The notes beneath the pieces were generated by a model. It saw only the letters and a program-made list of their open reading frames with translations. It was not told the DNA's origin and searched no databases. From NCBI GenBank assembly GCA_038744685.1, contig JBCDMB010000003.1:62001-126000 (forward strand): DNA of 64,000 nucleotides, in the 5' to 3' direction. The stretch comes from Verrucomicrobiota bacterium. Lineage in GTDB: Bacteria; Verrucomicrobiota; Verrucomicrobiia; Opitutales; Puniceicoccaceae. The translations under genes were made by a program, and so were the position numbers. Shown here in pieces: positions 30,047 through 54,122 of this stretch. How positions within the stretch are numbered: the first letter of the stretch is position 1; the number at the start of each line of letters is the position of its first letter.

Positions 30047-30491
30047 AGAGATTCTTCCCGATGTTGTAGCAGCGAAAAGTGTTGGATACTCCGGAAGCCG
30101 GATCAATCCATTGATCCGAAACGGTGGCAACCTCCCTAAATTTGGTGTTACAGAAAAAAAGACAGACCCGGATGCGCCGATGGGATGTTCTTTCCTTCGA
30201 AAACCAGGTGGGTGCTCTCCTTGAAGGCTTTGTCTTCCGATGGGCGGCTTGACAGCACCTTCTCGGGTTCGAGCTCCCTTTTTGATAGAGTAAGGAAAGA
30301 AACGGTTTTAAGGCCGAACGCTCCAGGAATGTCTTGGACTCCAAGCAAACACGCAAAATCATGGAGTGCAAGTTCTGACCTCAGACCAGAAACTCCTTCA
30401 TCTTCGGATTTCAAATTCGACGACCTGAACGCAGTTTTGGTTGACCTCCCCACTCCGGGTGGACAATCCTCACCGCTTTCCTCAAAGGAAT
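30047..30491. other. intergenic stretch, possibly a decayed minus-strand gene
   Basis: There is no convincing gene in 445 bases. A minus-strand frame at 30148-30453 (101 codons, GTG start) has a protein-like middle (FACLLGVQDIPGAFGLKTVSFLTL) but no recognisable family and no clear ribosome site, so it may be a gene remnant. A plus-strand frame over the same bases runs into the tRNA and is a shadow. Confidence 0.3.
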
Positions 30492-30567
<76 letters not shown>

Positions 30568-45118: not shown

Positions 45119-45144
45119 GGAGGGACATCGGCCTCGATGTCCGC
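45119..45144. repeat. REP half-element (first stem-loop)
   Basis: GGAGGGACATCGG...CGATGTCCGC matches the left half of the REP palindromes at 50827 and 54052 with one base change (GGCCTCG for GGCCCCG). It folds as GACATCG/CGATGTC. It sits between the divergent gdhA and ycjX genes. Confidence 0.85.
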
Positions 45145-50826: not shown

Positions 50827-50897
50827 GGAGGGACATCGGCCCCGATGTCCGCATCTCCGGCCGGGCGCAAGAAAGACGCCGAGGCCGGCGTCCCTCC
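50827..50897. repeat. complete REP palindrome (two stem-loops)
   Basis: The element starts GGAGGGAC and ends GTCCCTCC. It contains two hairpins: GACATCGGCCCCGATGTC and GACGCCGAGGCCGGCGTC, joined by a short spacer ending in GCAAGAAA. It is nearly identical in both halves to the copy at 54052. It lies between the EVE gene and the SDR gene. Confidence 0.9.
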
Positions 50898-53383: not shown

Positions 53384-53455
53384 GAGGGACCCCGCGGACG
53401 CGGGGCCCGGGATTCCTGCAGGACGCAACGAAGACGCCGAGGCCGGCGTCCCTCC
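53384..53455. repeat. REP palindrome variant with altered first stem
   Basis: GAGGGAC...GTCCCTCC ends are kept, and the second hairpin GACGCCGAGGCCGGCGTC is identical to the other copies. The first hairpin is instead CCCCGCGGACGCGGGG, and the spacer differs. It lies 61 bases after the symporter start, upstream of the transposase gene. Confidence 0.8.
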
Positions 53456-53469
53456 AAAACGAGATCCAT

Positions 53470-53495
53470 GGAGGGACATCGGCCCCGATGTCCGC
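53470..53495. repeat. REP half-element directly upstream of the RAYT gene
   Basis: GGAGGGACATCGG...CGATGTCCGC is identical to the left half of the full REP copies. It is 14 bases from the variant copy at 53384 and 42 bases before the RAYT start. Confidence 0.88.
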
Positions 53496-53536
53496 ATTCC
53501 ATTGCCATCAACCAAAATCTCTTCAATAAAAAGATT

Positions 53537-54028
53537 GTGCCTTCAAACGACACAAAAAACGAAAATCCACGGCGCAAACGCCCCGCACATCATCCTCCAA
53601 TTACAAGGTTCAATTGCTCGATCCTGATTTTCGTCACCATTTGCACTCAGTCCCGAAGGGCAAGCCTCGCCAATCCTACTGCTTTGGAAGCGTTTCGAAA
53701 AACGTTCGCTAAAACGGATCGCTGGATCGTTGGCAAATTTATGCTAATGCCCGATCACGTTCACTTCTTTTGCTCACCCGCACAAGATCCTCCCATGCCC
53801 CTTAAGAACTGGATCAGCCACTGGAAACGGATCTTTACGATGAATATCCGAAAGACGAATTCACTCTTCATGTGGCAAAGGGATTTCTGGGATACGCAGA
53901 TGCGGAGTGGGGAGAGCTACTCAGCAAAATGGAATTACGTTAGAGAGAATCCTGTTCGAGCGGGGCTCGTATCAGAACCAAACGACTGGCTTTACCAAGG
54001 CGAGTTGAGTCAATTGTCTTTCTCATAG
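53537..54028 (+). CDS. REP-associated tyrosine transposase (RAYT, IS200-like)
   Basis: Y1-type single-strand transposase of about 163 residues. The HUH motif is in MPDHVHFFCSP (residues about 72-77), preceded by the hydrophobic strand ILIFVTICT. The catalytic Tyr is in WNYVRENPVRAGLV (about 134), the family signature. FMWQRDFWDTQMRSGESY is a further RAYT block. GTG 53537 is a reasonable start; the frame extends to ATG 53468 but that runs through the REP half-element. REP palindromes flank it on both sides (53384-53495 and 54052-54122), the standard arrangement for RAYT-REP systems, which mobilise REP sequences. Confidence 0.9.
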   Translation: MPSNDTKNENPRRKRPAHHPPITRFNCSILIFVTICTQSRRASLANPTALEAFRKTFAKTDRWIVGKFMLMPDHVHFFCSPAQDPPMPLKNWISHWKRIFTMNIRKTNSLFMWQRDFWDTQMRSGESYSAKWNYVRENPVRAGLVSEPNDWLYQGELSQLSFS

Positions 54029-54051
54029 GATTTACGCGAGAAATAAACCAT

Positions 54052-54122
54052 GGAGGGACATCGGCCCCGATGTCCGCGCTCCCAGATGGATGCAACAAAG
54101 ACGCCGAGGCCGGCGTCCCTCC
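54052..54122. repeat. complete REP palindrome downstream of the RAYT gene
   Basis: GGAGGGACATCGGCCCCGAT at the left and GACGCCGAGGCCGGCGTCCC at the right are identical to the copy at 50827; only the spacer (GCTCCCAGATGGATGCAACAA) differs. It starts 23 bases after the RAYT stop. Confidence 0.92.

Follow-up and report, generated by a model that had tools for sequence, protein, structure and literature searches.

The E. coli nuclease TnpA_REP (structure 4ER8; PMC8266576, PMC6006769) and the system analysed here share an HUH/Y1 nuclease of about 165 aa with the positions W94, Q95, D/E100 and R104, a REP hairpin preceded by a 5' tetranucleotide, inverted REP pairs, and a REP-associated tyrosine transposase (RAYT) gene flanked by its own REPs. 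In E. coli, no change in the tetranucleotide GTAG is tolerated (PMC8266576), residue 101 is histidine and the REP stem is bulged, whereas our system has GGAG as its tag, threonine for H101 and a perfect stem of 7-8 bp. In the same phylum, Opitutus terrae carries several REP hairpin families with repeat-specific REPtrons, whose tag is GTAG (by mutation GTGG in the family GTAG-20) rather than GGAG (PMC3733652). These REPs and REPtrons were described in 2013 (PMC3733652), so that a verrucomicrobial RAYT-REP system is not new in itself, contrary to the initial annotation of our locus.

The Group 3/subclass 2.5 REPtrons of Stenotrophomonas and Marinomonas (PMC8266576, PMC6006769) share with our system perfect stems and one essential loop base, which in Marinomonas is T13 (PMC8266576), the position of a conserved T13 in the REPs of our clade. 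Marinomonas REPs are also concentrated near the RAYT, as in the genome studied here (PMC8266576, PMC6006769), but the tag of this group is GTAG and its tyrosine motif is YI[VI]ANP instead of YVRENP. More distantly, IS200/IS605 elements (IS608, ISDra2) have the same fold, and their hairpin is likewise recognised as single-stranded DNA with a 5' guide tetranucleotide.

In the window, that is, the whole 64,000-nt stretch of DNA analysed, we find what we read, with a probability of about 0.88, as a REPtron, in which a domesticated single-strand nuclease of the HUH/Y1 type (RAYT) has REPs of its own family on either side and probably acts on them. The unusual feature of this system is its GGAG tag, which the initial annotation had overlooked. 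Its features are the following.

45119..45142, + strand: solo REP in the intergenic gap that separates ycjX from the likely start of gdhA (pattern, covariance model)
50827..50850, + strand: left REP of a pair located between the epimerase gene and the EVE-domain gene (pattern, covariance model)
50874..50897, - strand: iREP, right member of the 50827 pair, 23-nt spacer (pattern, covariance model)
53384..53406, + strand: diverged REP, stem GGACCCCGCG GA CGCGGGGC, tag TGAG, unique in the genome
53432..53455, - strand: GC-stem iREP on the right of the 53384 pair (pattern, covariance model)
53470..53493, + strand: REP upstream of the RAYT, GGAG + hairpin GGACATCGGCCCCGATGTCC (pattern, covariance model, folding)
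53537..54028, + strand: RAYT (TnpA_REP) gene, 163 aa from GTG (Pfam Y1_Tnp, NCBIfam, AlphaFold model)
54052..54075, + strand: left REP of the REP/iREP pair that follows the RAYT downstream (pattern, covariance model)
54099..54122, - strand: iREP, right member of the pair downstream of the RAYT, 23-nt spacer (pattern, covariance model)

No Rfam family covers the window REPs. Elsewhere in the window, Rfam identifies a 6S RNA at 30161-30332 (-), with a tRNA adjoining at 30492-30564.

The RAYT gene and the anatomy of its REPs

The gene at 53537-54028 is well supported as a RAYT (TnpA_REP) of known kind. The open reading frame predicted to encode a Y1/HUH transposase is present, with the motifs DHVH, WQRDFWDTQMR and Y-VRENP, and its product matches Pfam Y1_Tnp in a profile search and narrowly passes the NCBIfam model NF047646 (REP_Tyr_transpos; 82.8 bits, cut-off 80), while two paralogues reach 101 and 87 bits on the NCBIfam REP-associated tyrosine transposase model. 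E. coli TnpA_REP (4ER8) is its best PDB sequence match and also the best PDB match in a fold search with its AlphaFold model (pLDDT 89; E 1.1e-8), with ~22% identity over the aligned fold. At the E. coli-numbered positions 94, 95, 100 and 104, the residues W, Q, D and R are kept, and position 101 holds Thr instead of His. Together with REPs that flank the gene and are dispersed beyond it, these matches uphold the initial assignment to a RAYT with REPs. An IS200/IS605 transposase was considered and rejected: the IS200 NCBIfam model gives 25.9 bits, far below its cut-off of 55, the tyrosine motif has NP (YVRENP) and not YxxxQ, no tnpB was recognised among the neighbouring ORFs, and the gene does not occur in many identical copies, its nearest paralogue being 62% identical. 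The GTG at 53537 is most likely the start codon, since the sole upstream ATG (53468), from which the protein would have 186 aa, overlaps the upstream REP and homology begins only after that ATG.

The RAYT is flanked on both sides by REPs in inverted arrangement, REP 53470 upstream and the REP/iREP pair 54052/54099 downstream, and the same holds for most loci of its clade. All five elements of the initial annotation lie at the positions it gave, and those with two stems are REP/iREP pairs (BIMEs or REPINs). The window repeat reads TGGAG-GGACATCG-GCCC-CGATGTCC-G, and the supposed second stem, taken in its own orientation, reads TGGAG-GGACGCCG-GCCT-CGGCGTCT, that is, the REP unit with other stem letters, inverted. 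Both stems are real, but they are a single REP type (GGAG + hairpin) in opposite orientations, which rules out two distinct stem modules. The proposal that each stem-loop is a unit that can be swapped falls as well, because the "halves" are this one REP facing either way and REPs often stand alone. The variant at 53384 does differ in its first stem, as noted initially, but it is a REP pair in the usual register whose left stem has diverged and whose tag has decayed to TGAG. The REP pattern matches the window four times on the + strand and three times inverted, with zero matches in window shuffles, and regular single REPs fold as single-stranded DNA at -8 to -9 kcal/mol, a stability that few or no shuffles equal.

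The REP unit consists of GGAG and a hairpin of the form GG(N5)-loop-(N5)CC. Among 31 distinct REPs, the hairpin has 7 bp with 99.5% of cells paired and a covariation of 0.884 against 0.151 when shuffled; across the clade, stem pairs 1 and 2 vary little or not at all, the other five covary, and the loop keeps T13 and C15. The invariance of the GGAG tag in this clade set follows from how the set was picked. Outside the REP, a single flanking base is conserved at either end, a T in front and a G behind, both more weakly than GGAG, so that the REP unit measures ~26 nt. A CT cut site beside the tag was discarded: CT precedes 26% of REPs, a share not above that expected from base composition. The loop (REP positions 12-15) reads CTCC in many clade REPs (L092-L171), the exact complement of the tag; a pairing of this loop with GGAG was considered, but other GGAG or GTAG REPs do not show it.

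The GGAG clade and residue 101

A GTDB genome scan yielded 80 loci, most of them from genomes named as Verrucomicrobiota, Lentisphaerae or Kiritimatiellae and a few from MAGs with other labels. The sequence tree places the window RAYT, with strong support, in a large clade that comes mostly from Verrucomicrobiota, Kiritimatiellota and Lentisphaerota and is associated with GGAG REPs (SH-aLRT 99 in a tree built without columns 94-104). In most of its members, Thr or Arg stands in place of H101. Counting hairpins that are repeated on both sides of the gene, chosen without regard to their flanks, GGAG stands at the hairpin foot in 48 of 71 loci of this clade; among other Y1 loci, the foot carries GTAG in 12 of 26. 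The canonical GT[AG]G is absent from the 5' foot of the REP, with GGAG found in the window and in most clade loci that have REPs. Since GT[AG]G is likewise missing from class 3 and subclass 2.6 (PMC6006769), GGAG excludes the window system from the canonical GTAG-REP class and not from the RAYTs.

Residues 94, 95, 100, 101 and 104 have been discussed for contact with the tag (PMC6006769), and column 101 separates GGAG from GT[AG]G best among the columns compared. With further class-level loci included, and with unclear tags read by eye added to the clear ones, residue 101 at GGAG loci is T in 49, R in 38, V in 2 and H in 1; at GT[AG]G loci it is H in 59, R in 4 and Q in 1. Closer reading adds L177 (H), L202 and L203 (R) to the GGAG loci. 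Four rows inside the GGAG clade have H101, one of which, L258, has GTAG-tagged REPs. Beside the clade stands a sister group of 10 rows with mixed tags, partly on one and the same hairpin, and GGAG also occurs in a distinct group formed by L026 and related, longer RAYTs. The tag has therefore changed more than once; on the tree we count 4-6 independent tag switches, a number too small for the sign test to be significant. Residue 101 is strongly tied to the tag by clade, but the tie is not strict: H stands with GGAG in L176 and L177, and R with GT[AG]G in L070, L075, L090 and L260, so that a strict coupling of H101 to GTAG was rejected.

We propose, tentatively and with less than even confidence, that an old, mostly PVC clade switched from GTAG to GGAG along with the tag-contacting residue 101, and that its enzymes read GGAG and may cut elsewhere (at CC, where GTAG enzymes can use CA). 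An alternative, itself less likely than not, is that GGAG arose by drift at a position that the enzyme tolerates and has no role of its own. Stenotrophomonas TnpA_Sm, which tolerates tag changes for binding, offers a precedent (PMC8266576), and the exceptions at residue 101 in both directions are in keeping with drift, as is one small subclade (L058, L082, L176) in which the hairpin GCGGGGTGCCCTCACCCCGC carries GTAG, GTGG or GGAG. Drift accounts less readily for a GGAG that is kept across a multi-phylum clade while the stems vary freely, or for the separation of both tags at position 101.

The tag is what looks new. GGAG was not found in the main text of PMC3733652, PMC6006769, PMC2817692, PMC8266576 or PMC8049555, and the tag variants given in the text of the PMC3733652 survey are GYAG, GYRG, GTRG, GTMG and GTGG. 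Provisionally, the GGAG-tagged clade is apparently undescribed.

REPs across the genome and among relatives

The assembly (G000; 3.64 Mb, 56 contigs) holds at least 83 REP covariance-model matches at E <= 0.3 among 150 candidates scored, and covariance-model and pattern matches together give the 88 REPs analysed, a lower bound, with ~75-80 copies lying beyond the window. A handful of copies would have spoken against the link between palindromes and RAYT put forward initially; the ~83-88 found point the other way. The 88 REPs form 60 clusters, 22 of 28 neighbour pairs are a REP followed by an iREP, and 84 REPs lie outside coding-like segments; REP 45119 is one of the four exceptions and stands upstream of the part of gdhA where homology begins. 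A plasmid search found no relative.

Loop and stem distinguish three REP subfamilies, each of which is also scattered genome-wide. Within 12 kb of RAYT I (C3, the window), II (C6:122906) and III (C5:14066), respectively, there are 7, 1 and 1 REPs of subfamily I, 0, 8 and 0 of subfamily II, and 0, 0 and 10 of subfamily III. Each subfamily is concentrated at its own RAYT: the excess near the cognate gene, REPs right beside it left out, is strong, with binomial p values of 5e-4, 3e-9 and 1e-8, which are inflated by REP pairing since the test counts REPs as independent although many are paired. Subfamily III includes pairs of a GGGC-stem and a CCAC-stem REP with a nearly fixed spacing of 33-34 nt, resembling a fixed mobile REPIN, on contigs C4, C5, C14, C16, C27 and C43. 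The genome has 15 Y1_Tnp matches in all. One, at C15:60029 (L026), is a longer RAYT of another group with GGAG-CGGCGACTTCAGTCGCCG hairpins on both sides, a second and separate GGAG type, and those at C14:21300 (L083), C42:5065 (L084) and C21:29255 (L087) are RAYTs with their own GTAG-tagged hairpins.

Of 87 genomes, 6 have a RAYT of the window clade and 81 do not; at least 10 REPs are found in 5 of the former and 4 of the latter (Fisher p = 2e-5, or 1.6e-4 when the own genome is left out), so the palindromes are far from equally common in genomes without this RAYT, the other outcome that the initial annotation had named as adverse. The four exceptions (G005, G056, G057, G084) have 10-34 true GGAG REPs and no RAYT of the window clade was found in them; RAYT loss or assembly gaps could explain them, given that all are fragmented drafts and that E. 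coli strains without a RAYT still keep REPINs (PMC8049555). Conversely, G030 has a RAYT of the clade and a single REP model match, and its REPs are 23 nt long, which the model may miss. Two genomes of the same genus, G001 and G002, keep the gene order and lack the RAYT block and one REP pair: the SSF-abhydrolase gap, which holds the RAYT block and measures ~820 nt in the window, is ~160 nt in G001 and ~150 nt in G002, while the distance between the epimerase and EVE genes, where the 50827 pair sits, is 198 nt in the window, 44 nt in G001 and 37 nt in G002. The REP model matches once in each of the two genomes, and no RAYT of the window clade was found in either. Empty sites thus exist at the level of gene order, although the intergenic DNA is too diverged for the junctions to be placed to the base; they may reflect gain in the window genome or loss in both G001 and G002, either of which fits.

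It is very improbable that the REPs and the RAYT are the relic of a decayed IS200-like element that no longer acts. The decayed REP 53384 and the genomes that have REPs without the window RAYT clade would agree with such a relic, but the catalytic motifs are intact, close RAYT pairs are under purifying selection (dN/dS ~0.1-0.2), several exact REP copies are present in the genome, and the IS200 score is far too low. Weaker still is the notion that the hairpins are ordinary RNA elements (terminators, mRNA stabilisers) selected at gene ends beside a RAYT that is a mere neighbour, which would suit their stable folds and near-exclusive location between genes but hardly the conserved bases beyond the stem (GGAG and, less strongly, a T and a G at the flanks), the absence of any overlap between REPs and the terminator-like sites found in the region, the clustering of each stem/loop subfamily at its own RAYT, the tracking of RAYT presence by REP abundance, or the empty sites.

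Proposed action of the RAYT and its meaning

By analogy with E. coli TnpA_REP, the window RAYT of this REPtron would bind one REP strand as folded single-stranded DNA, reading the tetranucleotide 5' of the hairpin, the hairpin itself and perhaps also the conserved loop base T13. It would then cut next to the REP and rejoin it elsewhere, and REP/iREP pairs would in this way spread into intergenic DNA, often near the RAYT. GGAG would play the role that GTAG has in other systems.

Three REP families in one genome, each around its own RAYT, provide material for the question of how REPs spread. Near-identical hairpins that carry GTAG, GTGG or GGAG in close relatives offer a test of the tag reader and of cut-site choice. 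Moreover, a large clade with GGAG, despite the strictness of GTAG in E. coli, constitutes a natural set of enzymes and REPs for testing how the tag is read.
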